Source: a virus
Length of the DNA stretch: 38,070 nucleotides
Reading direction: 5' to 3' (one strand)
Virus record (IMG/VR): IMGVR_UViG_3300047496_000216
Coordinates: 1 to 38,070 of that record
The notes beneath the pieces were generated by a model that saw only the letters and a list, made by a program, of their open reading frames with translations, was not told the DNA's origin and ran no database searches. Positions 2,608-38,070 of this stretch are shown here, one piece after another; position 1 is the first letter of the stretch; the number at the start of each line of letters is the position of its first letter. Made by a program: the position numbers and the translations under genes.

Positions 2608-3636
2608 GTGGCTCGTCAATTTAATTTGGCTTGTATCTTTCCTGATGCCATGGACGCGACGTCATTTTATCGTGGCGCGCGTCCCATGGGACTCCTTAAA
2701 AAGAAGTTAGACTTTGGGATTATAACAAATCCTCAAGCCCTTAACTGGCCGGAGACTAGCAGTTGCGACGCGGTCTATCTTCAACGCCCGTTCTCTGAAG
2801 CGCACGTTCAAATGTGCAATCTCGCGCGCTATTTGAACCTGCCTATTTGGATAGACTTCGATGACAACATTTGGGACATCCCGATTCACAATAAGGCGTG
2901 GCAAAACTACCGGGCGGCCGGCACCAGACAGAATATCCTTTCGATGCTTCAGATGGCGGCCGTAGTCACGACGACTACTCCGTTCTTAAAATCGAAGGTG
3001 ACTCACAAAAACGTGAAGGTGATCCCCAATTGCTATGACGATTACCTTTTGGGAGAAGGATCCAGGCTTCAACGAAAGAAAAATATCAAGCCCAGGAAAA
3101 TGATTTTTTGGAGAGGCTCGGACTCACATCAGAAAGATCTGATGCAGGTGACAGAAGCTATCATTAAACTCTCTCGGGCCGATCAGAAGTGGGAATGGGG
3201 AATAATGGGTTACGATCCATTCTTCTTACTTCAGAACATGCCGCCTTCTCGTACTCACTTCATCAATTACACGGACATCATCCGGTACTTTGAAGAGATC
3301 CAAAAAAGACAGGCGGCCATTCACATCGTTCCTCTTTTTGTCGACGATTTCAATAAAGCGAAAAGTAATATCGCCTGGATCGAAGCGACCCATGCGGGAA
3401 GTGTCGTGCTAGCGCCTGACATCGAAGAATGGAGAAAGCCTGGCATCGTAAACTATAAAAATCCAGTGACTCATCCGACGGACTTCGAAGAGAAGTTAAA
3501 GCATATGATGGATAACTTCGATGAGTACCGAGGATTTAACGAAATTAGCTGGGCATACATTAAGGAGAATCTTCTCCTTTCAAACGTGAACGAGAAGAGA
3601 GCCGACATCTTAAGAGAGATTATAAAAGACCTATGA
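2608..3636 (+). CDS. GT-B fold glycosyltransferase (GT4/GT1-like)
   Basis: This 342-residue protein resembles GT-B glycosyltransferases that transfer a sugar from a nucleotide donor. The first half shows an N-terminal Rossmann-like unit with SFYRGARPMGLL and PIWIDFDDNIWDIP (about 89-102), a signature of phage and cell-wall GT4-like enzymes. VIPNCYDDYLL (about 140-150) marks the domain junction. The second half has the donor-site layout: a strand-turn FWRGSDSHQKD, then IAWIEATHAGSVVLAPDIEEW (about 257-277) with the conserved acidic residue after IAWIE. No signal peptide or membrane segment. The start is GTG with AGAGGT five bases upstream. Its stop overlaps the ATG of the next gene (ATGATG). 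Confidence 0.78.
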   Translation: MARQFNLACIFPDAMDATSFYRGARPMGLLKKKLDFGIITNPQALNWPETSSCDAVYLQRPFSEAHVQMCNLARYLNLPIWIDFDDNIWDIPIHNKAWQNYRAAGTRQNILSMLQMAAVVTTTTPFLKSKVTHKNVKVIPNCYDDYLLGEGSRLQRKKNIKPRKMIFWRGSDSHQKDLMQVTEAIIKLSRADQKWEWGIMGYDPFFLLQNMPPSRTHFINYTDIIRYFEEIQKRQAAIHIVPLFVDDFNKAKSNIAWIEATHAGSVVLAPDIEEWRKPGIVNYKNPVTHPTDFEEKLKHMMDNFDEYRGFNEISWAYIKENLLLSNVNEKRADILREIIKDL

Positions 3637-5099: not shown

Positions 5100-5192
5100 T
5101 TAAAGGATGACAGTGTGCAACACAGTGACGCACACCAAAACGATAACTTCGATCACCAAAAGTTCAGTAAGGCTTAGCATGTACCGGCTCAT
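5100..5192 (-). CDS. Tiny membrane protein downstream of endolysin
   Basis: A 30-residue frame starts at 5192 inside the endolysin stop codon (TGATG). The protein begins MSRYMLSLTE and continues as one uninterrupted hydrophobic helix (LLVIEVIVLVCVTVLHTVIL), the right length to span a membrane. Coupling to the endolysin stop and the single transmembrane helix fit a small holin- or pinholin-like protein. Its shortness means coding status needs proof. Confidence 0.5.
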   Translation of the reverse strand: MSRYMLSLTELLVIEVIVLVCVTVLHTVIL

Positions 5193-5638
5193 CAGATCAC
5201 CTTGTAGGTTCTAAGGTTGTTACCAGTGAGCGCTAGGTACTGGTTTTCTCCTGCAACCTTCACACCCAACCATTGGTGCATGTAGCGCTGTGGCTTCATC
5301 CCAAGATGAAGGCCACCGATCTCTTTTCCGTTGAACTGCCATTCAGGATAGACCCCGATAGAAGTAAACCCAAACCGCACTGCGCTAAGAAAGAGGTTTA
5401 AAAGAGTAAAAGGACCGCAGACGTAGTCAGGGACGATCACATCTACCGCAAATCCCTCATAGTGCTCACTGTCTTCAGTGTGCTTCCCTTGAGTTCCACA
5501 ATCGATGTGCGGATGAACACCAATGAAATCGGTCCAGGCGTCGAGCGCTTGGATAAGTTTAAAGTCCATGCGGAGCGGTTCCCCGAAGTCAGGAGTTGGT
5601 TTGAAATTCCTGATGGTGTCCCACTCTTTTTGGGTCAT
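5192..5638 (-). CDS. Endolysin, M15 peptidase type (D-Ala-D-Ala carboxypeptidase-like)
   Basis: This 148-residue protein has the metal site of the Hedgehog/D-Ala-D-Ala peptidase fold: SEHYEGFAVDV matches SxHxxGxAxD with His59 and Asp66, and GGLHLGM supplies His111. Such proteins cut peptidoglycan stem peptides or cross-bridges and serve as phage endolysins. There is no signal peptide, so export through a holin is expected; small membrane proteins follow directly at 5100 and nearby. Length is typical of single-domain M15A lysins. The gene lies after the tail genes, with no good ribosome-binding site before the ATG, so reinitiation from the upstream gene 21 bases away is likely. Confidence 0.85.
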   Translation of the reverse strand: MTQKEWDTIRNFKPTPDFGEPLRMDFKLIQALDAWTDFIGVHPHIDCGTQGKHTEDSEHYEGFAVDVIVPDYVCGPFTLLNLFLSAVRFGFTSIGVYPEWQFNGKEIGGLHLGMKPQRYMHQWLGVKVAGENQYLALTGNNLRTYKVI

Positions 5639-7458: not shown

Positions 7459-10059
7459 TTAAATGAAGCGGTACGCCCCTCCCTTGTCTGCTACATAACC
7501 TATTAAGTCGCAGAAATATCCACTTGGTGCCCCAGTCGGTGCGAATTGACCACTCACACCAGGACCGCTGGGCGTGAATCCCATGCTGTTTTTGAGGGTA
7601 ATGAGGCCACCAGAAATACTCAAGATCTGTTGATCCAAAGAGTCTTGGGTGTACTGATAATTGTGAACCCTACAGTATCCACCGGTGAAAAATCGATAGG
7701 AGTCTCCTGGATAGACCACAAACTGAAACGGAGAGACGCCGCCAGAAATTTGGACTCTGTGTGATGTGAACGCGTGTATGTTCTTGTAAACGTTGTTTGT
7801 CGCTATGGACCCAGTAGTGGGATACGACGGTATGTCCATTACATACCCGGACGGTGGTGAAAACGGCAGCGGAGGTGAAATCGTCATTTGATACGGATTC
7901 ACGGGATTGATGGACTGAATGACAGAAGCGCCCGTGACCGTCCACCCAGTATCGTGGACGAGGATAGGTTGATTGAGATAGTTGATCCATTTGTTCGGCT
8001 CATTAAAAGGGAACTTTGGATTTGCGTGACTAAAAGAATCGGTGAGTATCAGTATATTCGGCGTCGAGCCAACGCCGACGACAGTAGATGGTGATATGAC
8101 GCCAAAACGATCTGAAGCTGAGGCTCCCACGCCAGAGACCAATCCCAGGGTAACCTTACCTGTTGAGATATCAAGATTACGGTTGGTGACTTCAAATAGT
8201 TGTGTTCCAAAGTTCAGACTCCCGTCATTAAAGTTAGTGAGAAAGAGATTCGTCCCATCAAGGCCTACGACGTCGCCTGCTTCGATAAGGCTCCCTACCC
8301 CGTAGTTCACACTCAAATTGATGATGCTCGCACCCAGCTTGTACCTGGACAGAAGGTACTGAGAACGAGTGGTGAGTGTCGCTCCGATGTTTGAAGAGAG
8401 ACTCGTCCTTATCCCATCCGCAGTTATTGGGAGAACGCTCGACAACCCTATTTGAGTGAGGCTTGCGCTATCCAACAAATCGAAAACAGACTGGTAGGTG
8501 CTTAAGTCGTCGGCGAGATCGTATTGCCAGAAAATTTCGTTGAAGAACTTTCTAGAGTTTACAGCCCTTGTAATCGTAATGTTTTGAGGCTCAAGAATAC
8601 TGTCTTGATTTAGGACTACGAGTTGCGACTGAGAGATCGGAGGCTTAGTGATGTTTACCGAGCACTGCCCACGACGAGTTAAAGAGTAGGCCGCAACCGG
8701 CAGGTAGATCTGACTCTCGATAAAATCTTTCCCAGAGGTACTTGCGTTTATGAAGAACGAGTAGGCATCATCGGTGTCATTAAGAAACTCGGCCTGAAGA
8801 TTTAAGTGCCCTTGGATGTCTACGTCCAGTGGCTCCATCATGAGCCCGCACTCGTTTGGATAGGTATCGAACTGACTTCGAATCGAGAAGACGGCGGTGC
8901 TTAAAGGACCTTCGGCAGTAAAAGTCACAATCCCGGCACCAGGATAGGCCAGGGTAATAATTTGGTTTGGCTGAGCGGATGAGATGCTCTCGACGGCAAC
9001 GACGGTAAACGTCCCGTTGTTCGCAGGATTAGGCGATCCAGAGATGGTAATGTAATCCCCGGTCACGACGTTGTACGACTGAATGGCATCTATTCCGTCC
9101 GGGAGGACGAGAGCGTTCTGTACTAAACCAAGTGACGAAGAGGTTTGAGCGAGCGCTTTGATGGGTTGGTTCGTTATCCAAGGACCGCCCCATCCAGAGA
9201 GCATGAGCTTCAAAGCCATTGGAATGCAGCTATCTTGGATCTGAACATACCCCGCAACTGCGGCACCGGCAGCGTGTGGAGCGGGCGTCGTTCCTCTTGC
9301 CCCTCTTGTCACGTTAACAAAGAAACTACCGGACACACTCCCCGAAACTACTCCACCGGATATCGAATTGGGTCCGTAAGAAATAAATTCGTTGTCGACT
9401 AAAATGTACGGGCTTATCGCAGTATCGTAACCATTGTTTGGACCTAGGATTGGAGCGAAGAAATCATTCGGGTTTACGACTGGGATATTGGTCGTGAGGT
9501 TGTCGATCCCATAGCTCATCGTCGTTGCGGGCTGAAAGAAAAGGTCCTGCCGCCTTTTTAAGTTTGGGTCAGACAGTTGTAGCGTAATGAGCCCAGCCTT
9601 AGATTGAACTTGGCTGACAAAGCCTCTGAAGATCTGAAAGTAATCTTGAGGGTAACTGACGTTCGAATACCCTAAGAAAACAGTGACCGTAGTGCCCAGG
9701 ATGTCTTCGATGAGAACGCCGGGTGAAATCACCTGACTCATGAACCCGTTCTTATCAATGAAGGCTAAAGAGATTTGGCTAACGGATCCCTTTCCCTGCT
9801 CGGGCTCCAATGTTTGAGAAATCGTGAGTGAAGATCCGGCCAAAGACACCAGATCCAAGAACCCTGAAAGCTTTTTGAAACCACCATAGACGAGGCCAGG
9901 CTCACCGTAAGTAATCCCCGGATCCCCGTATTTCACGATCGTGTAGATAGGGCCGTTTGTGAGTAGGGTGCTTAGTCCCGCAATCTGAACAACAACAGAG
10001 ATGTTCTTGTTCATGCTCTGATTTGCGAGCAGGTAATTATTAGTGGGGTTCAAAGACAT
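7459..10059 (-). CDS. Tail-tip / baseplate hub-like protein
   Basis: An 866-residue protein placed after the distal tail and adhesin genes and before the collar-type proteins. The N-terminal part (about 1-180) has the strand-rich look of hub domain I (VVVQIAGLSTLLTNG, LIYxxxVKYGDPG repeats, DYFQIFRGFVSQV, LITLQLSDPNLKRRQ). The middle (about 270-560) contains PMALKLMLSGWGGPW and a long region with TLTTRSQYLLSRYKLGASI, which resembles gp27/Tal-type hub proteins where the tail tube meets the tip. The C-terminal quarter is strand-rich and probably exposed. Hub proteins initiate tail assembly with the tape measure and often connect to receptor-binding parts. Start overlaps the adhesin stop by one base (TAATG). 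Confidence 0.65.
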   Translation of the reverse strand: MSLNPTNNYLLANQSMNKNISVVVQIAGLSTLLTNGPIYTIVKYGDPGITYGEPGLVYGGFKKLSGFLDLVSLAGSSLTISQTLEPEQGKGSVSQISLAFIDKNGFMSQVISPGVLIEDILGTTVTVFLGYSNVSYPQDYFQIFRGFVSQVQSKAGLITLQLSDPNLKRRQDLFFQPATTMSYGIDNLTTNIPVVNPNDFFAPILGPNNGYDTAISPYILVDNEFISYGPNSISGGVVSGSVSGSFFVNVTRGARGTTPAPHAAGAAVAGYVQIQDSCIPMALKLMLSGWGGPWITNQPIKALAQTSSSLGLVQNALVLPDGIDAIQSYNVVTGDYITISGSPNPANNGTFTVVAVESISSAQPNQIITLAYPGAGIVTFTAEGPLSTAVFSIRSQFDTYPNECGLMMEPLDVDIQGHLNLQAEFLNDTDDAYSFFINASTSGKDFIESQIYLPVAAYSLTRRGQCSVNITKPPISQSQLVVLNQDSILEPQNITITRAVNSRKFFNEIFWQYDLADDLSTYQSVFDLLDSASLTQIGLSSVLPITADGIRTSLSSNIGATLTTRSQYLLSRYKLGASIINLSVNYGVGSLIEAGDVVGLDGTNLFLTNFNDGSLNFGTQLFEVTNRNLDISTGKVTLGLVSGVGASASDRFGVISPSTVVGVGSTPNILILTDSFSHANPKFPFNEPNKWINYLNQPILVHDTGWTVTGASVIQSINPVNPYQMTISPPLPFSPPSGYVMDIPSYPTTGSIATNNVYKNIHAFTSHRVQISGGVSPFQFVVYPGDSYRFFTGGYCRVHNYQYTQDSLDQQILSISGGLITLKNSMGFTPSGPGVSGQFAPTGAPSGYFCDLIGYVADKGGAYRFI

Positions 10060-26020: not shown

Positions 26021-27367
26021 TTACCTCCTGATGATGAACATCTTGCCAGGCTTCACTGCCGATTGGATAGGCGTGATCTCGCAAATTGCGTAGCCGATAC
26101 CATCTGACGCGTGAGTCATGTCCCCCTTTGGTCCCGAATCCAAAATTAACGTCGCACCTTTCTTCCAGGCAACTTGAGAAAGGTCGCGCTGCAAGTTTCG
26201 ACACTTGGGGCTATGCCACATACTGACTTGGCCCGAAGCACTCCTAAGCACCGCGTTCACCGCGTTCACCCTGTCTTTTACGGTCGGGTTGCAGCTTGGA
26301 GTGCGGCTCGTCCACCGGATGGAGTTCGCATCCAGTATCTGACCCACGATGTCATAGTCGCTTTGCCCGGCCGCGGCCCGTTGCCCTGCGTTCGATGTCG
26401 CATCCCCACAGATAACAATCCCTGCAGGATGACCTTTAACCCGCTCCACAAGCTCAAGCGCCGCTTCGGGTGTGTGACTGTGTTCCAAGTGAATCTCATC
26501 GTGCCAGTACCAATTTGGCCCCGCGTTTTGCCCAAGCGTCCAGCACATAGGCGTCAGGTTGAAGTCCATTGCGACGATGATGGGGAGCGCGGGATGAATC
26601 CCGCCATCACGGGTGAGAGGTGATGTGTCACGTACGTTGTGGTCGCCGTAGGCGTAGTAGACCGGATGCTCCGCGATGTTCACGTGCTTTGCGTCGAGTT
26701 CTTGGGCTGCCGTCACTTTCGAATAGGTTTTAAGCAACTGGTCGTAGAACTCTTGGGTGATGATGCCGGCCTTCACAGCTTCGATAGTTGCGACGTGGGT
26801 GAAGCCGTAGGTGAGGTCTTTCGGGTTCTTTACGATGAACCGTTCATAGCTCCAATCCTCACCATTCGTCGTTGAGGTTACGAGTCCTCGAATCTTCTTT
26901 GATTCACGAAGACGACTCACAATGACGTCGTGAGTGTTCTGAGGCGTGTCCCGGACCTCGTCCATCCAGTACCAAGAGAACTCGATACCACGAAGCGGGT
27001 TTGGCTTACTCATCACACGGGTAAAGATCGTGACCAGTCGGTTTTTGGCCTTTACCGAAATGATGTTCGCGTAACTTTTGAACTCCCGTCGTCCTCCCCA
27101 GTGTCGGGGTGGCCTTTTGTCTGCGACCCACTTGTAACCGTAGTAATCAAGCCAGTAGAAGAATTCTCGAAGTGTCGCTTGGGAAAGTTGGTTATAGGTG
27201 TTCGCACCGATGAGACCCGATTCGTCTGGCATCGTGTCTATATTCTCGAGCGCGAAGTGGGATCCTGTGAAGGTCTTACCTACTGCGACACCGCCAAAGA
27301 ATGCGTAATGCGTAAAGGGATTCTTCACCACCGCGGCTTGCCATGGGTGAAGATGGATATCGCTCAT
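26021..27367 (-). CDS. terL: Terminase large subunit
   Basis: A 448-residue packaging motor. Walker A is GGVAVGKT (Lys31, Thr32), Walker B is WYWMDE (Asp136, Glu137). The nuclease domain has its three acidic residues in VAMDFN (Asp268), ICGDAT (Asp322) and HASDGIGYA (Asp422). ATPase hydrolysis drives DNA into the head and the nuclease cuts the concatemer. The length is typical of a full two-domain protein. It overlaps the small subunit by four bases (ATGA). Confidence 0.95.
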   Translation of the reverse strand: MSDIHLHPWQAAVVKNPFTHYAFFGGVAVGKTFTGSHFALENIDTMPDESGLIGANTYNQLSQATLREFFYWLDYYGYKWVADKRPPRHWGGRREFKSYANIISVKAKNRLVTIFTRVMSKPNPLRGIEFSWYWMDEVRDTPQNTHDVIVSRLRESKKIRGLVTSTTNGEDWSYERFIVKNPKDLTYGFTHVATIEAVKAGIITQEFYDQLLKTYSKVTAAQELDAKHVNIAEHPVYYAYGDHNVRDTSPLTRDGGIHPALPIIVAMDFNLTPMCWTLGQNAGPNWYWHDEIHLEHSHTPEAALELVERVKGHPAGIVICGDATSNAGQRAAAGQSDYDIVGQILDANSIRWTSRTPSCNPTVKDRVNAVNAVLRSASGQVSMWHSPKCRNLQRDLSQVAWKKGATLILDSGPKGDMTHASDGIGYAICEITPIQSAVKPGKMFIIRR

Positions 27368-27770: not shown

Positions 27771-28694
27771 ATGAAAAAGCTACTGGCCGTTTACAATGTT
27801 TGTGGGATTTCGGGTCGAGAGAATATCCCGTATTACGTCAACGCAATCGAATCCATGCTTCGTCAAGATTTGAGTGAGACTGATGTCGTGGTCTCTGGCT
27901 GCATGAGTTCAAAGCCTGTTCAAACGCAGCTGCAAGATACTTTTGGTGCAAGAATTTCTTACAATTGGATCTTGCAGCCACTGCCTTTAGGCGTCACGTT
28001 CAACCATACTGTGGCACGATGTGTCGAACGGTTTGGAGAGTATGACGGTTACCTCTACGTGGATTCTGGCATCAATTTCTGGAACCCAGACGGAGTGGTG
28101 CTTGGGAATACGTTCTCGACACTCTTTCAAGGGATGCGTCAGTACAACGCGGCTATCATTGCCGCGATGCCATCAAACGATGACGGGAGACAGTGGTGGA
28201 ATATCAGCTATCCGCCTGACGGTTCGGACTACCGGTACTCTTTAGGACAGACGACGAACATGCACTGCCAAATCTTTTGTGCGGATTGGCTTAGGACGTA
28301 CGGCCGAATCTTGCCTGACATATTCGCTTCCGATTCCAGTGAGTCCACATTTTCATTTTTATGTTCCGCACTTCGTCGTCCCTTCATCATGAGACAGCGC
28401 GCCCACGTCTTTCATGCGCATTCGATGGACGGAGCGTCTTCTGGGTTTCGAGGGCAACTTCTCTTTAAGACCACGCGCACAATGGATGAGAGGTACAACG
28501 AAGGGAAGCACTTAGGGTTTGGATATGAAGAGTGCGACCCACAGAAGCGGTGGATGCATGACCCGACAGCTTACGACGCTGACGGTTATCCAATAAGCCC
28601 TGAACTTGCGCTTTATTTGAAGGAAAACTTGTTCTTGAAGCAGTCGGAGTTTGATTACCGTTGGATCAATTCAGTTATGTTCGCAAACCGCTGA
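27771..28694 (+). CDS. Glycosyltransferase (GT2-like, variant DXD)
   Basis: A 307-residue soluble protein with GT-A features: MKKLLAVYNVCGISGRENI at the start, a helix with YYVNAIESMLRQ, GVTFNHTVARCVERFG (nucleotide-binding helix), and GYLYVDSGINFW, where Asp98-Ser-Gly stands at the DXD position with its second Asp missing. The C-terminal half (FHAHSMDGASSGFRGQL) has conserved His/Asp that could assist catalysis. It heads a two-gene plus-strand island with the C-methyltransferase-like gene and is divergent from the terminase block. The acceptor is unknown. Confidence 0.7.
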   Translation: MKKLLAVYNVCGISGRENIPYYVNAIESMLRQDLSETDVVVSGCMSSKPVQTQLQDTFGARISYNWILQPLPLGVTFNHTVARCVERFGEYDGYLYVDSGINFWNPDGVVLGNTFSTLFQGMRQYNAAIIAAMPSNDDGRQWWNISYPPDGSDYRYSLGQTTNMHCQIFCADWLRTYGRILPDIFASDSSESTFSFLCSALRRPFIMRQRAHVFHAHSMDGASSGFRGQLLFKTTRTMDERYNEGKHLGFGYEECDPQKRWMHDPTAYDADGYPISPELALYLKENLFLKQSEFDYRWINSVMFANR

Positions 28695-28714
28695 GCGTTG
28701 TAAAGGGATGTAAA

Positions 28715-29851
28715 ATGTACACCAGGATTACCAAATGTAGGGCGTGTGGGCATCAAAGTTTCGTTCCCGTTTTAGATCTTGGAATGCAAGCACTGACCGG
28801 TGTTTTCCCAAAGTCGAAATCAGATCCGGTTGAAAAGGCTCCACTTCAACTAGTGCGTTGCGGGAAGTGCGAGCTCGCTCAACTTCATCACACCGTGCCG
28901 CCAACCCTCATGTTCGGAAAAGGGTACGGGTACCGATCGTCTTTGAATAGATCCATGGTTTCTCACCTTGAATCAAGTGCAAGAGCGATTGAGCACATGG
29001 TTGCGATCAAGGACACGGACGTTGTGGTCGACATAGGCTCGAACGATGGCACAACACTCAAAGCTTTTAGAAACGGTGAGCGATGGGGATTTGATCCTGG
29101 TGACTTTCAGAAATATTACGACGGCACTGAAATCCATTTCGTCAACGATTACTTCAAAAAAGGAATGTGTCCCAAAGCGAAAGTGATTACCGCTTACGCA
29201 ATGTTCTACGATCTTGACGATCCGATTTCATTCTTGAGCGACATGGCAGATACCCTTGCACCTGGCGGTGTCATCGTCCTTGAGCTCGCGTATCTTCCGA
29301 CAATTGTTAAAAACACTGCTTACGATACGATCTGTCACGAACACCTTTGTTACTACCGGATCTTCGACGTCGAGACGATGGCTATTAAAGTTGGTCTGCG
29401 AAGGAAATTCGCTATGTTGAACGATACCAATGGCGGGAGCGCGTTCATCGTTCTTGAAAAAGGAGTCCCGATAAATTCGAGAAGCCTTCAGGATTACCAT
29501 TTGTATCTCGATTCGTTTGCAACCCGTGTGAGAGAAAGAAAAGAGCAGTTGCTTAAATTCCTCGACGCTCACAGAGGAAAGGTCGTGGGCTACGGCGCAT
29601 CCACCAAAGGGAACGTGCTACTTCAGTATTGCGGGATCACAGAAGAGTTGCTTCCAGCCATCGTTGATGTGAATCCCGACAAGTGGGGATCGTTTACTCC
29701 TGGATCTCTTATTCCGATTGTTCCTGAGGGAACTATTGAGTCTGAGTACTTCTTAGTCATGCCGTGGCATTTCAAAGACGACATCTTGAAACGGAACCCG
29801 AAACAGAAGTTCGTCTTCCCGCTGCCTACCCTGGCCACATACCGAGCTTAG
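28715..29851 (+). CDS. SAM-dependent C-methyltransferase (sugar C-methyltransferase type)
   Basis: A 378-residue protein with three parts. A zinc site comes first (Cys8, Cys11, Cys49, Cys52). The SAM domain follows, with VVVDIGSNDGTTLKAF (motif I, about 103-118) and HEHLCYYR (about 210). The C-terminal domain carries GKVVGYGASTKGNVLLQYCGI (in parts), as in NovU/TylC3-type enzymes. This order matches proteins that add a methyl to C-3 or C-5 of nucleotide sugars. The ATG at 28715 has AAAGGG seven bases before it and is better than the upstream ATG at 28661. Its end overlaps the convergent gene at 29826 by 26 bases. No sugar-synthesis genes are nearby, so a host sugar nucleotide should be the substrate. 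Confidence 0.83.
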   Translation: MYTRITKCRACGHQSFVPVLDLGMQALTGVFPKSKSDPVEKAPLQLVRCGKCELAQLHHTVPPTLMFGKGYGYRSSLNRSMVSHLESSARAIEHMVAIKDTDVVVDIGSNDGTTLKAFRNGERWGFDPGDFQKYYDGTEIHFVNDYFKKGMCPKAKVITAYAMFYDLDDPISFLSDMADTLAPGGVIVLELAYLPTIVKNTAYDTICHEHLCYYRIFDVETMAIKVGLRRKFAMLNDTNGGSAFIVLEKGVPINSRSLQDYHLYLDSFATRVRERKEQLLKFLDAHRGKVVGYGASTKGNVLLQYCGITEELLPAIVDVNPDKWGSFTPGSLIPIVPEGTIESEYFLVMPWHFKDDILKRNPKQKFVFPLPTLATYRA

Positions 29852-30707
29852 AGAATATTCTAAGCCAGAATAGTTCGGGGTTTCGCGTCTCGGTTACTTG
29901 TCTGTGTAGACTCATACGTGAGACATCCAGACACTTTTCAGCGTCCTTAGACTCACTCTCTTTGATCATTGTCCTAATATCTTCCACTGACCGCCACTCG
30001 AAATAATCAACGAACCACTGCCGTGTGATCGGATTTGTCTGTTCCAGAAGAATGCATTTAGCCAAACCAGCTTCTCTAACTCTGTTCTTCACATGCCATG
30101 TTTTTCCGCTTCCAGATCGAGCGAAGTTCACCACAAACTTACAACGGAGCATGAAATCTGCGTAGTCTTGATAGGTGCCGTACCTCTCGCACCTGGGCCC
30201 CACAGTCACAAGACTTCCGAGCTCTCGAATAGCGTCGCTTCGTTCTTTGCTTCCCGTTCCACCCACGAATCCCAAGAGAATGTCTTTTTCTACTGTCTTA
30301 TCGTACGGCCTCGGATCGAGCGGCATGAGAGTGGTCAGATCATTCCCAGAACTTGGCCAGTAACTTGAACCATCCATATTCACTTGAAACGTAAACGCGT
30401 TCGCTTTCCGGTACTGTTGAATGGACGGCCACCAGTCTGGGCACGCTCCGTCGCAGCATAGGTGAACGACTGGGCAGATATGCTCACGAATGGTTGCGAA
30501 CATGTCGGCCGGCATCTTTAGCGGCCCTTCCGCCGCTCCAATGTAGAACACGACGTCCGGGTTCAGTGCTTCGACATAACTGTAGGATGGCACTAGTTTC
30601 GAATAGAAGTGGTGTGTAATCTCTAGGTTCCAGTGAGTGACACTCGTTAAGCTATTCACCACGGGCTCTAAAGCCATCGACTCGTTTGTGATCCAAAGAA
30701 CTTTCAT
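29826..30707 (-). CDS. CgeB-like glycosyltransferase, copy A
   Basis: A 293-residue protein resembling the glycosyltransferases of the CgeB/DUF3880 type (GT-B fold). The first half has MKVLWITNESMALEPVV, then VVHLCCDGACPDWWPSIQQ and VNMDGSSYWP. The second half has DILLGFVGGTGSK, then YGTYQDYADFMLRCKFVVNF and a conserved RVREAGLAKCILLE (donor site). It is clearly paralogous to the protein at 32405; both have the CCD-x-x-CPDWWP block and the YGTYQDYA block. No membrane segments. AGGGA lies eight bases before the ATG. A 7-base stem (29846-29852, 29859-29865) covers the convergent end with the methyltransferase gene. Confidence 0.75.
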   Translation of the reverse strand: MKVLWITNESMALEPVVNSLTSVTHWNLEITHHFYSKLVPSYSYVEALNPDVVFYIGAAEGPLKMPADMFATIREHICPVVHLCCDGACPDWWPSIQQYRKANAFTFQVNMDGSSYWPSSGNDLTTLMPLDPRPYDKTVEKDILLGFVGGTGSKERSDAIRELGSLVTVGPRCERYGTYQDYADFMLRCKFVVNFARSGSGKTWHVKNRVREAGLAKCILLEQTNPITRQWFVDYFEWRSVEDIRTMIKESESKDAEKCLDVSRMSLHRQVTETRNPELFWLRIFSKLGMWPG

Positions 30708-32335: not shown

Positions 32336-32408
32336 AAATCAACCCCCCGATGATCACAGCGATGGAGAGCGCAAACACGATGAGGGTTGGTATTAAGGAC
32401 TCACTCAT
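32328..32408 (-). CDS. 26-residue membrane miniprotein
   Basis: A 26-residue frame whose ATG overlaps the stop of the glycosyltransferase before it (ATGA). Its sequence (MSESLIPTLIV onward) is one short hydrophobic helix ending in IIGGLIFG. The coupled start favours translation, but its length keeps the call tentative. Confidence 0.45.
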   Translation of the reverse strand: MSESLIPTLIVFALSIAVIIGGLIFG

Positions 32409-33289
32409 TTCATTACCTTCACCTGATGGAAGACCGAGTCCCAGAATCTCTCAGGCGAATGGTAACTCATTACGTCTGAGTACATTCTCTCCGAATAGCT
32501 CTTCGCCTCTTTCAAAGACATACTGACCACAATACGTTCGATATCGTCGATAGAATCGTATTCCAAGTATTGAATTCCTTTTTGGAACCAAAGCTCCGTT
32601 ATCGAGTCCTTTGGCTCCAAGAGACACGCTCCGGCAAGCGCAGTCTCTACCACGCGTGCCTTCACGTGCTTTCCCCGTCCTGATCCGGTCTCGCACATGT
32701 TGATAACGAAGTGGCAGCGCTTTAAGAAGTTCGCGTAGTCCTGGTAGGTGCCGTAGTTTTCATTTCGAGGGGCGACTACGAGGAGGCCTCGCTTTTTAAG
32801 TTCATCCGTGAGCTCTTTCCTCTTCCCCCCACCGCACCCACCTGCAAACCCCAGGACGATGTCTTTAACCACCTTCTCGTCGTAGAACCGGGTATCGATG
32901 GGGCAAAGAGTAGTTAGATCCCATTCGCTCTCAGGCCATTCGGTACTTCCGTCGATATTGACGATGAAAGTGAAGACTCCCTTTTCCTTGTACTCAATGA
33001 GAAGTGGCCACCAATCGGGGCACCCCGCATCGCAACAGATCATAACGAGCGGCGCTTTTTCTTTGATGGACAGTAAGTGCTCAATGGATAGGCGCCTAGG
33101 ATCCAAAGTCCCGATGTAAAGAATGAGGTCCGGTTTTCTCTGCTCGATGACGAAAGAGATCGCGTGAACTTGATCTTCCATCTCGAAGTAGTCCATCCTT
33201 GTGGTTTCGGTAACCCCAGAGATCGTATCGATGGACCTGATGATAGGCTCTAAGCTCATCGACGTGGTGCCGAGCCAAAGGACTTTCAT
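32405..33289 (-). CDS. CgeB-like glycosyltransferase, copy B
   Basis: A 294-residue paralogue of the protein at 29826. Common blocks are MKVLW(L/I), SLEPI, CCDAGCPDWWP, FTFIVNIDGSTEWP, DLTTLCPID, IVLGFAGGCG, YGTYQDYANFLKRCHFVIN and RVVETALAGACLLEP. The glycine-rich and CPDWWP motifs look intact in both. Start is the ATG at 33289, just after GGAGG, so the six residues before it in the longer frame are not used. It overlaps the upstream gene by four bases. The two copies could add different sugars or form a heterodimer. Confidence 0.76.
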   Translation of the reverse strand: MKVLWLGTTSMSLEPIIRSIDTISGVTETTRMDYFEMEDQVHAISFVIEQRKPDLILYIGTLDPRRLSIEHLLSIKEKAPLVMICCDAGCPDWWPLLIEYKEKGVFTFIVNIDGSTEWPESEWDLTTLCPIDTRFYDEKVVKDIVLGFAGGCGGGKRKELTDELKKRGLLVVAPRNENYGTYQDYANFLKRCHFVINMCETGSGRGKHVKARVVETALAGACLLEPKDSITELWFQKGIQYLEYDSIDDIERIVVSMSLKEAKSYSERMYSDVMSYHSPERFWDSVFHQVKVMK

Positions 33290-33600
33290 GCCTCCTCCGG
33301 GGAACATCCAAATTTGTCGTGCTCATAGATTTTCACGAACTTTAAGTATTCAAGACACCCACTTAGGAGGTCCATAATCAAAGAATTTAATCTTTGTTGA
33401 GCTTGTCTTTGAATTTCGGCTATTGGAACATCTTTCTTCAGATCTATTTCTTTCAGGGAATGCGAAAGTTTAGTGAAGTCATCGTCCTCTTTTACCCACT
33501 TCTTAATCAGCTTCGCACTGCGCTTGTACCGCCGCTTTCGCATCGTGGCCTCGATGGCTTTCACTTTGTTTTTGGATCCTGGTTTTCGACCTCTTGGCAT
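33286..33600 (-). CDS. Basic AT-hook-like protein of unknown function
   Basis: A 104-residue protein. Its start MPRGRKPGSKNK is an AT-hook-like (GRKPGSK) basic motif, followed by a Lys/Arg-rich helix (MRKRRYKRSAKLIKKWVK), then an acidic helical section and a helical end. DNA binding is plausible. It is the first gene of the chain after the terminator at 33622-33701 (AAGGGAG seven bases before the ATG) and overlaps the glycosyltransferase start by four bases. Confidence 0.7.
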   Translation of the reverse strand: MPRGRKPGSKNKVKAIEATMRKRRYKRSAKLIKKWVKEDDDFTKLSHSLKEIDLKKDVPIAEIQRQAQQRLNSLIMDLLSGCLEYLKFVKIYEHDKFGCSPEEA

Positions 33601-35121: not shown

Positions 35122-35535
35122 ATGAAGGCACTTAAACTTTTAGGGTTCGCTCTTTTAATTGCAGCCTGCGGCAAGGCGCCGATGGCCATCAACTCATCGG
35201 TCGCGACCACCTACGTTCCGCTCTTTGGGATTGGGTCTGGACAAGCCGAAAAGGACTTTATGGCGCGGCCACAGGTGATGGCTCTGTCGTACAACTATAC
35301 GGCACCTGTGCTGCAAAACTACGGGGACGAGGAGATGGACCAGGACACGAACCCATACATGCTCTACGTGCTTCAGGACAACACGAACCAAAAAAAGCTC
35401 ATCTCCTTGAACTGTAGCAATGACCCGACGGTGAATGCGGCGAACGCCTCGATCCCGGGCTACAAGGTTACAACGACCATCGTCACCATCGATGACGGGT
35501 ACGGCTGCGACTTTTACATCGAAAGGACAGAGTAA
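35122..35535 (+). CDS. Phage-encoded lipoprotein
   Basis: A 137-residue protein with a lipoprotein signal: MKALKLLGFALLIAAC, with the lipobox IAAC and Cys16 as the lipidated residue. The mature part is strand-rich, with two Cys (NCSN, GYGCDFY) that may form a disulphide, and an acidic/Asn-rich middle. Phage lipoproteins made from a strong early or constitutive promoter commonly block receptors for superinfection exclusion, or can act in lysis. The promoter at 35067 and an AGGAGGAGGG site point to its own strong expression. No family recognised for the mature domain. Confidence 0.8.
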   Translation: MKALKLLGFALLIAACGKAPMAINSSVATTYVPLFGIGSGQAEKDFMARPQVMALSYNYTAPVLQNYGDEEMDQDTNPYMLYVLQDNTNQKKLISLNCSNDPTVNAANASIPGYKVTTTIVTIDDGYGCDFYIERTE

Positions 35536-35732: not shown

Positions 35733-35892
35733 CCTACGGCCCTACATTTCACGAGAAACCGCTTTGGAGCTCTTTACAGCGCTTAAGATGCTTCTTGAGC
35801 TTAAGCCGACCTGGGATGGCCCTACGGTGAAGTACGCGAAAGAGGTTCACGACAGGGCCCGGGACGAGATAATCAAGAACTCCAAAAAATAA
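35686..35892 (+). CDS. Small helical protein of unknown function
   Basis: A 68-residue charged protein read from the ATG at 35686, with GGAG six bases upstream; a TTG at 35674 has weaker support. Nearly all helical (ALELFTALKMLLELKP, VKYAKEVHDRARDEII). Last gene of the lipoprotein operon. Its final codons, AAAAAATAA, are shared with the T-run of the antisense terminator at 35884. Confidence 0.55.
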   Translation: MDESYLNEIMKSKDSDLRPYISRETALELFTALKMLLELKPTWDGPTVKYAKEVHDRARDEIIKNSKK

Positions 35893-35950
35893 GGCCCGGG
35901 TCATCGCAGTTGAGGATGCTCAGTACAACACCCTCTCAGCTCGCCGGGCC
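35884..35950 (-). terminator. Terminator downstream of the papain-like gene
   Basis: GGCCCGG (35893-35899) pairs with CCGGGCC (35944-35950) around a 44-base loop that has an inner stem (GAGGATG with CACCCTC and one G-U pair). In the minus direction the stem is followed by TTATTTTTT. It would terminate the protease message, 77 bases after its stop. Confidence 0.6.
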
Positions 35951-36026
35951 CTAAGTCGCAAGTTCTCTCGTAATCCACATAACCAGGAGATCCACTCTCC
36001 CCGTTACGGTCTCATCCACGATTGTC

Positions 36027-37010
36027 TTATTTTTTATCCAGGGAGTCTACGACATCCTGGATTTCTTTTTTGGCCTCTTCCGCCTGGTACTTCGCGGCAG
36101 GCTTCAAGGACCCCTTCACCCCGATCGTGGTGCCCTCCACCGAGAAGTCAGTGACAGGGACTGGCGGGAGCGGCTTGTCGTTGATGGTGTAGAAGGCCGC
36201 TTGGTTACCGATGTTGTTACAGGGGCGGCCCGTGCGGCCCGTGTAAGCTATCCGCATCCAGCCGTTCTCGCCCCATTTCGGACCCCAGCTGTTTCGCATG
36301 ATCCAGTACTTACCCGTGTCGCTCCATCCAACGATGTTCACCATGTGGTTCACCTGTTGGTTCGAGCACGCATTGTAGATACCTGACTCGTACTGGGCGA
36401 ACGCGTTGTCGGCACCGACTGTCACCGAGACCGGACCCGAGGAGAGGATCGCCTGTTGGATTTGCTTCACGGTGGGAACCGAACTCTCAGACCCCACGTA
36501 GTGCCACCCGATAATCCCGGCTGTAGGCGTCGAGGCTTTGCAGCGCTGCGTGCGCGCGACGTAGGGGTAGCTATCCCACGAAGGGGCCCCTTTTGGCGTC
36601 ACGAAGTAAGTGGCAGCGTCAAACGTGCCACCGTTACAGCCAAGCTCATGGCCACAATCTACCAGGTACTGTTGGGAGAGCCGGCCAGGGTCTTTCCCGT
36701 ACAGGGTCCAGACGTCCCTAAGGGTCGCCGTGAGGGAGAACGCCCAGCACGACCCGCACTGGCCTTGATCTTCTATCTGTGTGATTTTATTACGTAAATC
36801 GTATTCTGCCGGGATTGGAAGGTCCTCTCCTGGCGTCTGGTAATCCAGGTTTTGGCTTACCTTAGGGAAGCTCAAAAACCCGGTCTTGTACTTCACGGGC
36901 TTATCCGTGAAGTGGAAGGTCCAGCCTTCCGACTTCGCGCGTTCGGTGAAGTCGACGTTTGTCGCAAAAAGTGAGCCGCAAAACAGTAAAGCTAAAAGGA
37001 GTACTTTCAT
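36027..37010 (-). CDS. Secreted papain-family (C1A) cysteine protease
   Basis: A 327-residue protein with a signal peptide (MKVLLLALLFCGSLFA, residues 1-16, cleavage before Thr17 or so). A 47-residue propeptide-like region follows, then a complete C1A domain: DQGQCGSCWAF with Gln82 (oxyanion hole) and Cys88 (nucleophile), CGHELGCNGG (about 119-128), NHMVNIVGWS with His222, and IMRNSWGPKWGENGWMRI with Asn240. All catalytic residues are present. The usual I29 inhibitor prodomain is missing or very short. The last 50 residues (PVTDFSVEGTTIGVKG and a helix) are an extension. The start is ATG at 37010, with GGGGGGA seven bases upstream; the ATG at 37037 would add nine residues. Papain-type proteases are unusual in phages. 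It could act in the periplasm or outside. Confidence 0.92.
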   Translation of the reverse strand: MKVLLLALLFCGSLFATNVDFTERAKSEGWTFHFTDKPVKYKTGFLSFPKVSQNLDYQTPGEDLPIPAEYDLRNKITQIEDQGQCGSCWAFSLTATLRDVWTLYGKDPGRLSQQYLVDCGHELGCNGGTFDAATYFVTPKGAPSWDSYPYVARTQRCKASTPTAGIIGWHYVGSESSVPTVKQIQQAILSSGPVSVTVGADNAFAQYESGIYNACSNQQVNHMVNIVGWSDTGKYWIMRNSWGPKWGENGWMRIAYTGRTGRPCNNIGNQAAFYTINDKPLPPVPVTDFSVEGTTIGVKGSLKPAAKYQAEEAKKEIQDVVDSLDKK

Positions 37011-37099
37011 GGTGTGTCCCCCCAAAGTTTCTTTCATCGTACCACGGTAATGAGCTCAGCCCTTGACTGTCGTTAGACACGGGGCGTACAAGGTTTGGA

Positions 37100-37276
37100 A
37101 TGATCGAAGGCTCTGAAAAAAAACTGCACCGGGACCGAAGACTCGCTTTTAGGCTCAACACTCTTGAGTACTGTCAGTTGATGGACTCTGCGAAAAAAAT
37201 GGGTCTCGACGTTTCAAGCTACCTTCGTCACCTGATTCACACGCGCCCCTCCAAAAAAGAAAAGGTTAATCGTTAA
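37100..37276 (+). CDS. Ribbon-helix-helix DNA-binding protein
   Basis: A 58-residue protein with the RHH (Arc/MetJ) fold: a basic start (MIEGSEKKLHRDRR), a strand LAFRLNT, helix A (EYCQLMDSAKKMG), a turn (LDV) and helix B (SSYLRHLIHT), ending basic. RHH proteins bind DNA as dimers through the strand and often regulate their own operon. AAGG lies six bases before the ATG. Its stop overlaps a TCGTTAAACAAT operator-like site (37270-37281), which recurs twice after the next gene. TTGACT (37063) with TACAAG 18 bases on could be a weak promoter. Confidence 0.75.
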   Translation: MIEGSEKKLHRDRRLAFRLNTLEYCQLMDSAKKMGLDVSSYLRHLIHTRPSKKEKVNR

Positions 37277-37329: not shown

Positions 37330-38070
37330 GTGCGATTAGAAGCTGTCATCGTCTGCAAAAACTACTCTGACTTTTTGGCCGAAACTCTGCCTTTGAACGT
37401 GCAACACTTCGACGAAGTGGTCGTCATGACATCTCACGATGATGTGGAGACCCAAAAGCTTTGCGAACGCTTAAGTGTGGAACACGTAAAGACCGACTGT
37501 TTCTTGGATGACGGCGACACGTTCAACAAAGGCAACGCGATTAATCTTGGGATCTCGCACCTCCCCCGAAAAGGGTGGCTACTTCACCTGGACGCAGACA
37601 TCGTCCTTCCCCACCGGTACCGGTACATGCTCGAGAAGACGGAGCTTAACCCGAAGAATATCTACGGGGCGGACCGCGTAAACGTGTACGGTTGGGAAGC
37701 TTGGTCTGCCTTGAAGCCGCGTCTCATACCCCATTACCAAGACCATTGGTTTGTGGATCCGGGTTTTTGCCACACGTGGATGGGAGCCACACCTTCTGGT
37801 CTTAAATTTGGCGCTAGAGTCATCCACAAGGAACAAGGGTGGGTGCCTATAGGTTACCACCAGCTTTGGCACGTGAGCGCCCCCTACCGCTATAACTACA
37901 AGCTTGGGAGTGCGGCAGGAGCAGACTGTTGGTTCCCGGCTCAGTGGCCACGGGAAAATCGAATTCTGATGCCTGAGGTCATTGTTTACCATTTGGATAG
38001 CGAGTTAGAGCACTTGAAGGGGAAAAACTGGAAGGGGCGTCAAAGCCGAAAGTTCGGCCCTTCTCAAACT
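37330..38070 (+). CDS. GT-A glycosyltransferase (GT2-like), N-terminal 247 residues
   Basis: The frame from GTG at 37330 (GGGGGA four bases upstream) runs open to the window end and continues from base 244 to 435, giving 310 residues. MRLEAVIVCKNYSDFLAETLP is the first nucleotide-binding strand and loop. FNKGNAINLGISHLP is the second helix. LLHLDADIVLP has the DXD (Asp88-Ala-Asp90) that binds the metal ion. Later blocks (GADCWFPAQWP, EVIVYHLD with its His) are acceptor-side motifs of GT2-like phage enzymes. The 16 bases missing from the left copy fall in GADCWFPAQWP, so only this copy codes a sensible protein. No membrane segment. The donor and acceptor are unknown. Confidence 0.82.
   Translation, partial: MRLEAVIVCKNYSDFLAETLPLNVQHFDEVVVMTSHDDVETQKLCERLSVEHVKTDCFLDDGDTFNKGNAINLGISHLPRKGWLLHLDADIVLPHRYRYMLEKTELNPKNIYGADRVNVYGWEAWSALKPRLIPHYQDHWFVDPGFCHTWMGATPSGLKFGARVIHKEQGWVPIGYHQLWHVSAPYRYNYKLGSAAGADCWFPAQWPRENRILMPEVIVYHLDSELEHLKGKNWKGRQSRKFGPSQT
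37812..38070. repeat. Contig-end redundancy, right copy (intact)
   Basis: 259 bases equal to 1-243 plus 16 bases. Removing the left copy gives a circle of 37,827 bases with an intact glycosyltransferase gene. Confidence 0.95.

Follow-up and report, generated by a model that had tools for sequence, protein, structure and literature searches.

A papain-family protease with a predicted export signal in a tailed-phage genome, and the gene company of its relatives

What does a tailed phage do with a secreted protease of the papain family? The question is raised by a gene on the minus strand of a 38,070-nucleotide stretch of viral DNA (IMG/VR record IMGVR_UViG_3300047496_000216), which was analysed over its whole length and is called the window here. 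A sequence-only reading had described the gene as a secreted C1A protease with the layout of a moron.

The protease and its layout

The open reading frame from 37010 to 36027 on the minus strand is, by its sequence, a C1A papain-family protease gene with the full Gln/Cys/His/Asn set, and its product is predicted to be active. The translation is free of stops and has 327 amino acids; an alternative in-frame ATG at 37037, upstream of this start, would give a product of 336. The protein matches Peptidase_C1 (PF00112) in Pfam over residues 66-258 with an E value of 2.3e-52, and its score of 178.7 bits against a curated cut-off of 20.7 places it in the C1A family. Q82, C88, H222, and N240 are all found and are invariant in an alignment with two solved plant proteases, which bears out the catalytic set named in the sequence-only reading. 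The CGSCW and NSWG motifs are also present, as in bacterial single-domain C1A proteases. Sequence matches in the PDB at E<=1e-3 number 177 distinct entries, the top one being Procerain B (4e-35). The AlphaFold model is weak, with a mean pLDDT of 60, and the Foldseek search made with it places papain-fold chains best (E 9e-16, target TM about 0.7).

The protein can be divided into four parts, all encoded on the minus strand. Residues 1-16 (36963-37010) form a predicted signal peptide, and the N-terminus, MKVLLLALLFCGSLFA followed by TN, resembles a Sec signal by eye, in agreement with the earlier claim. Residues 17-64 (36819-36962) are a short pro-segment of about 48 residues, recognized from Pfam and alignments, with a motif around Gly44 that is common to the relatives. 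The catalytic domain, with the four active-site residues, occupies residues 65-275 (36186-36818) according to Pfam, the alignment, and the fold match. The remaining residues, 276-327 (36030-36185), are an unconserved tail in the alignment and a long helix in the model. Pfam gives no match to the I29 inhibitor domain at E<=1, so the short propeptide lacking I29 was read correctly. It is not the oddity it had been taken for: Gly44 is kept in 45 of the 47 phage rows and in 45 of the 50 bacterial ones, suggesting that a short pro-segment is normal for the bacterial and phage C1A group. A signal-like N-terminus is found by a simple rule in 33 of 42 phage C1A proteins. Several phage homologues have a lipobox, and the window protease has no clear one.

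The catalytic residues, motifs, and fold are thus those of bacterial single-domain C1A proteases (MEROPS C1A, PF00112), while the window protease differs in being phage-borne and predicted to be exported, with a short pro-segment of non-I29 type. It differs likewise from the I29-type (cathepsin L-like) proenzymes in having no I29 pro-domain.

The phage genome and the setting of the gene

The window is a tailed-phage genome closed on itself, of about 37.8 kb. In a self-comparison bases 1-243 repeat 37812-38070 apart from one 16-bp indel. A glycosyltransferase-like reading frame crosses the end junction in the right-end version, and the left copy breaks the frame. The genome holds a terminase (large subunit at 26021-27367, minus strand, from profile matches), a portal, Mu-type head proteins, a head maturation protease, a tape measure, tail collar proteins, and an Erf recombinase. 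Because the ends overlap and the protease gene lies inside the closed genome, the gene is phage-borne; the bacterial chromosomal context that had been named as a refutation was not found. Pfam shows no integrase domain among the 43 pooled open reading frames of the window. PHROGs gives an 'integrase' label (phrog_21421) to one window frame, which is not among the frames scanned singly. A possible M15-like endolysin lies at 5192-5638 on the minus strand, away from the protease gene; it was recognized by eye and has no Pfam match above the cut-off. No plausible reading frame of the window has an HExxH motif. Glycosyltransferase- and methyltransferase-like genes at 2608-3636, 28661-30707, and 32405-33307 of this 38-kb phage suggest modification of surface sugars. 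The nearest terminase relative, on contig L002, is only 46% alike, and that contig has no C1A gene.

The protease gene appears to form a unit of its own. At about 35890-35953 on the minus strand, 3' of the gene, a GC-rich stem that bears a nested arm is followed by UUAUUUUU, giving a terminator-like hairpin with a U tract. The 151-nt stretch containing it has a folding-energy z score of -4.2, and none of 200 shuffles was equally stable; a consensus terminator scan did not report it. A candidate terminator, as expected of a moron gene, is therefore present, and this half of the earlier claim of a separate unit is supported. For the other half, a promoter of its own, a scan covering sigma70-like promoters found no match upstream on the minus strand. 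Some 10 nt separate the ATG from a GGGGGG element on its 5' side. The neighbour that had been called an RHH regulator is a small divergent frame at 37100-37276 (plus strand), and this assignment has slight backing from a NikA-like ribbon-helix-helix match in Pfam of 23.3 bits, below the 27-bit cut-off.

The base composition also sets the gene apart. Its G+C content of 0.564 is the highest of the 33 window genes compared, the other 32 having a mean of 0.503 (sd 0.029). Its GC3 is 0.713 against 0.571 (sd 0.054) and is matched only by the gene of a putative lipoprotein of 137 amino acids at 35122-35535 on the plus strand (GC3 0.717), known from the list of reading frames. The solitary unit, the hairpin, and the highest G+C suggest that the protease gene is cargo-like, and the raised composition of the stretch fits recent gain.

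Relatives in phages and bacteria

Relatives of the protease are scarce in isolated phages and recur in uncultured viruses. With the window protease as query, tblastn gave hits in 7 of the 50,697 phage records searched, each a weak match of about 25% identity, and in 7 of 72,556 plasmids, the best at 32%. As a single query against IMG/VR it found no match. Alignment-based scans of uncultured viruses gave 16 and 49 contigs with C1A genes, 8 of them common to both, for a total of 57; the scans rely on exact patterns, so that members are missed. The statement that C1A proteases are very rare in tailed phages therefore holds for isolates, and in uncultured viruses such genes are recurrent. A C1A frame was recovered in 47 of the 49 contigs of one scan (all but L198 and L202), and among these 47 the catalytic Cys is kept in 46 and the His and Asn in all. 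A terminase profile (phrog_2) matches 29 of the 49 contigs and fires as well in 11 of 14 control genomes; contigs lacking this match may be fragments or non-viral. Four phage C1A pairs gave dN/dS values of 0.07, 0.08, 0.12, and 0.12 (dS 1.66, 2.86, 0.81, and 0.80), the third and fourth of these pairs having one member in common, and the other four of the eight pairs yielded no value, one of them consisting of identical sequences. The window protease matches phrog_16701 at 1.1e-9, which indicates that a phage C1-like family had already been clustered; its name says 'peptidase' and nothing about export or an operon. Two collection matches, H1 and H2, were left out of the phage C1A count, and L004 (MT837935) was rejected as a phage locus since its surrounding genes look chromosomal by eye.

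In one group of relatives the protease gene is part of an operon. The order is an amidase endolysin, the C1A protease (usually a lipoprotein), an exported HExxH metallopeptidase, and a nuclease-like gene, the last label being given by eye. The group was assembled from a metallopeptidase scan (10 contigs) and the C1A scan and has 12 contigs, 11 of them distinct (L088, L092, L093, L135-L137, L139, L141, L168, L175, and L179). An amidase-model match lies directly 5' of the C1A gene in 10 of the 12; of the other two, one contig starts inside the C1A gene and one has no match. The metallopeptidase is directly 3' in 11 of the 12, and the nuclease-like gene is found in 10. All genes of the operon are on the same strand, and the gaps between endolysin, C1A, and metallopeptidase genes range from -95 to +87 bp. 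Pfam confirmed Amidase_2 in the endolysins of L088 and L093, the two scanned. The terminase of L139 finds those of L095 (36%) and L093 (29%) and misses those of L092 and L088; such differing terminases suggest that the operon is retained while other modules change.

The metallopeptidase is named from HExxH and ExxAD motifs, which the exported protein after the C1A gene bears in L088, L092, and L093, and from a Pfam M48 match at E 0.13 in one of these three members. No Pfam family scored above its cut-off in the three. The AlphaFold model, built from three sequences, is poor (pLDDT 55) and has no PDB match at E<=1e-3.

This arrangement is not found around the window protease, which has no endolysin gene directly upstream. 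Outside the operon group, Phage_lysozyme, GH108, Amidase_2, and M15_3 domains occur once each among 52 same-strand neighbours at 26 loci, a count made with no control set and from which no enrichment is claimed. None of the host loci examined, each of about 2-7 kb, has a C1A gene adjoining a metallopeptidase gene. On an Elusimicrobia contig (L016:2842-4943) an amidase-model frame overlaps and follows the C1A gene. In L090 a trypsin-family protease gene (9020-9877) is directly 5' of the C1A lipoprotein gene, and in L095 a lipoprotein with HELGH is encoded 3' of the C1A gene.

The phylogeny of the catalytic domain, proposed earlier as a check of the host, identifies the kin of the window protease and leaves the host unsettled. 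Both trees come from quick searches with SH-aLRT support only. In the first, which omits L003-L008, L018, L101, and L102, the protease is in a 20-row clade (support 97) with Elusimicrobiota, Bdellovibrionota, and phage rows, and Elusimicrobiota rows are its direct sister (support 100). The second tree is richer in phage rows and omits L176, L189, L190, L203, and L204. Its corresponding clade (support 95) has 29 rows, 19 from Elusimicrobiota, 3 from Bdellovibrionota, and 7 from phages including the window. L024 and L054 are labelled as Bdellovibrionota in the second tree, although they are titled Proteobacteria and Deltaproteobacteria. In this tree the window protease branches before the Elusimicrobiota rows. 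Since phage, Elusimicrobiota, and Bdellovibrionota rows intermingle, the sister group does not decide the host. The phage rows of the second tree require at least five label changes on well-supported branches, suggesting that C1A genes have probably been exchanged repeatedly between phages and bacteria. Homologues of the window protease turn up in 80 of the 290 genomes from Bdellovibrionota and 30 of the 198 from Elusimicrobiota, and the closest cellular ones, from the latter phylum, reach 53% identity over the domain. Phages thus hold secreted proteases in common with predatory and other environmental bacteria.

The hosts of the operon phages can be suggested from the metallopeptidase. Of 280 Bdellovibrionota genomes 190 encode members of its family, often many and as many as 10 per genome, against 16 of 198 Elusimicrobiota genomes. 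The two sets are the phyla of genome G018 (the source of L013) and genome G023 (the source of L009), and the phylum names used here are taken from their titles, Bdellovibrionaceae and Elusimicrobia. Given this contrast in abundance, Bdellovibrio-like bacteria are the probable hosts of the operon phages. Two other routes to the window host were uninformative. The window terminase matches 3 of 290 Bdellovibrionota and 1 of 198 Elusimicrobiota genomes at 25-29% identity, and none of 12 genomes holding close C1A genes. The lipoprotein encoded at 35122-35535 has weak partial matches in 3 of 280 genomes, and no viral relative of it was found. Bdellovibrio phages were reportedly described as a three-membered system in a paper of 1972. 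The lytic Bdellovibrio isolate phage phi1422, which is part of the searched phage collection, has no match to the window protease or to the C1A protease or metallopeptidase of L092, suggesting that such enzymes are accessory and that release can generally do without them.

Possible roles and known systems

We tentatively favour a role late in infection, as a possibility short of an even chance. The phage would hold an exported C1A protease as cargo, drawn from a pool common to Bdellovibrionota, Elusimicrobiota, and their phages. The protease would be exported by Sec and shed its own short pro-segment, and the mature enzyme would cleave envelope or surrounding proteins, helping the cell to disassemble and virions to leave. 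Such a role is suggested by the relatives, in which the C1A gene comes directly after an endolysin gene and before that of a second exported peptidase. Among the functions listed in the sequence-only reading, action on the envelope gains from this gene order. For the window itself the argument is weaker, as its protease gene is solitary and not beside the endolysin candidate. The lack of an HExxH frame in the window, of a C1A gene in L002, and of matches in phi1422 also speaks against this role. The main rival is lysogenic conversion, which we consider somewhat unlikely: as a moron, the gene would benefit the host during infection or in a lysogen-like state, for example by digesting prey or other external proteins. 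The terminator-like hairpin, the G+C and GC3 values, and the nearness to cellular Elusimicrobiota proteases, with homologues across both phyla, all agree with a moron. Against it are the endolysin operon of the relatives and the lack of a Pfam integrase domain, the single PHROG label aside.

Other explanations agree less well with the evidence. Superinfection exclusion, in which a surface-anchored protease strips receptors from the infected cell, is quite unlikely; the lipobox of several phage homologues would keep them on the cell envelope, but no clear lipobox is seen in the window protease, and the endolysin and second peptidase of the relatives suit bulk degradation better. In L090 and L091 the C1A gene adjoins terminase and head genes, as might be expected of a virion-associated enzyme that breaches surface proteins at attachment. 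This is nevertheless very improbable for the window, where the gene is outside the tail module and the signal peptide would export the protease ahead of cytoplasmic assembly. That the gene is not a phage gene, but misbinned host sequence or part of a chimeric contig, is scarcely credible: the raised G+C that the gene has in common with its neighbour could be read in this way, but the contig closes on itself with the gene inside, and homologues are found on many virus contigs, most of those in the larger scan with a terminase match.

The favoured role in release can be extended to the operon phages, although we regard the extension as unlikely. Predatory Bdellovibrionota live inside prey. Their phages would encode an export kit, made up of an endolysin, a lipid-anchored papain-like protease, an exported metallopeptidase, and a nuclease-like protein, that dissolves both the predator and the prey remnant, so that virions exit two cells; the window protease would be a solitary relative of the kit protease. 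To our knowledge the known lysis systems of endolysin, holin, and spanin include no exported protease. A recurring operon of an endolysin and two exported peptidases would amount to a new phage means of dismantling cells, and it would offer a molecular hint as to how phages of predatory bacteria escape from a host that itself sits inside another cell.

Phage-borne cysteine proteases have precedents. The C10 protease bfp3 has a papain-like fold. According to PMC2873492, it is carried by Bfgi2, an excisable siphovirus-like prophage element of Bacteroides fragilis; it is phage-borne like the present protease but belongs to family C10 and not C1A, and Bfgi2 is an integrated prophage with an integrase. 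PMC10380794 reports the acquisition of short C1A peptidases of the xylellain type by Myoviridae, Siphoviridae, and giant viruses, likewise a case of bacterial C1A genes in tailed phages. Going by the description of that type as 'short' there, the present phage set is distinguished by export or lipid anchoring, by pro-segments, and partly by an extra C-terminal domain. C1A proteases in tailed phages are therefore already published; for the exported form and the endolysin-protease operon no paper was found in the open-licence literature, most subscription titles being outside this scope.

Some phage copies may be nearer to the xylellain type, namely those of Lak-A1 and L097-L103. Lak-A1 is represented by four records with one C1-like place each, and in the place that was read the C1-like frame has no signal peptide and adjoins a portal-like gene by eye. 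Signal-less C1-like proteases near portal- or head-type genes were seen by eye in L008 (Prevotella phage Lak-A1), L098, and L100-L103, where they possibly act in head maturation or have a structural role. Near their phage C1A genes, L091 (8125-8808), L090 (10862-11677), L156 (4228-4920), and L158 (1990-2649) encode exported proteins of about 220-270 amino acids that look alike; those of L091 and L090 are 30% identical, and the likeness of the L156 and L158 copies was judged by eye.
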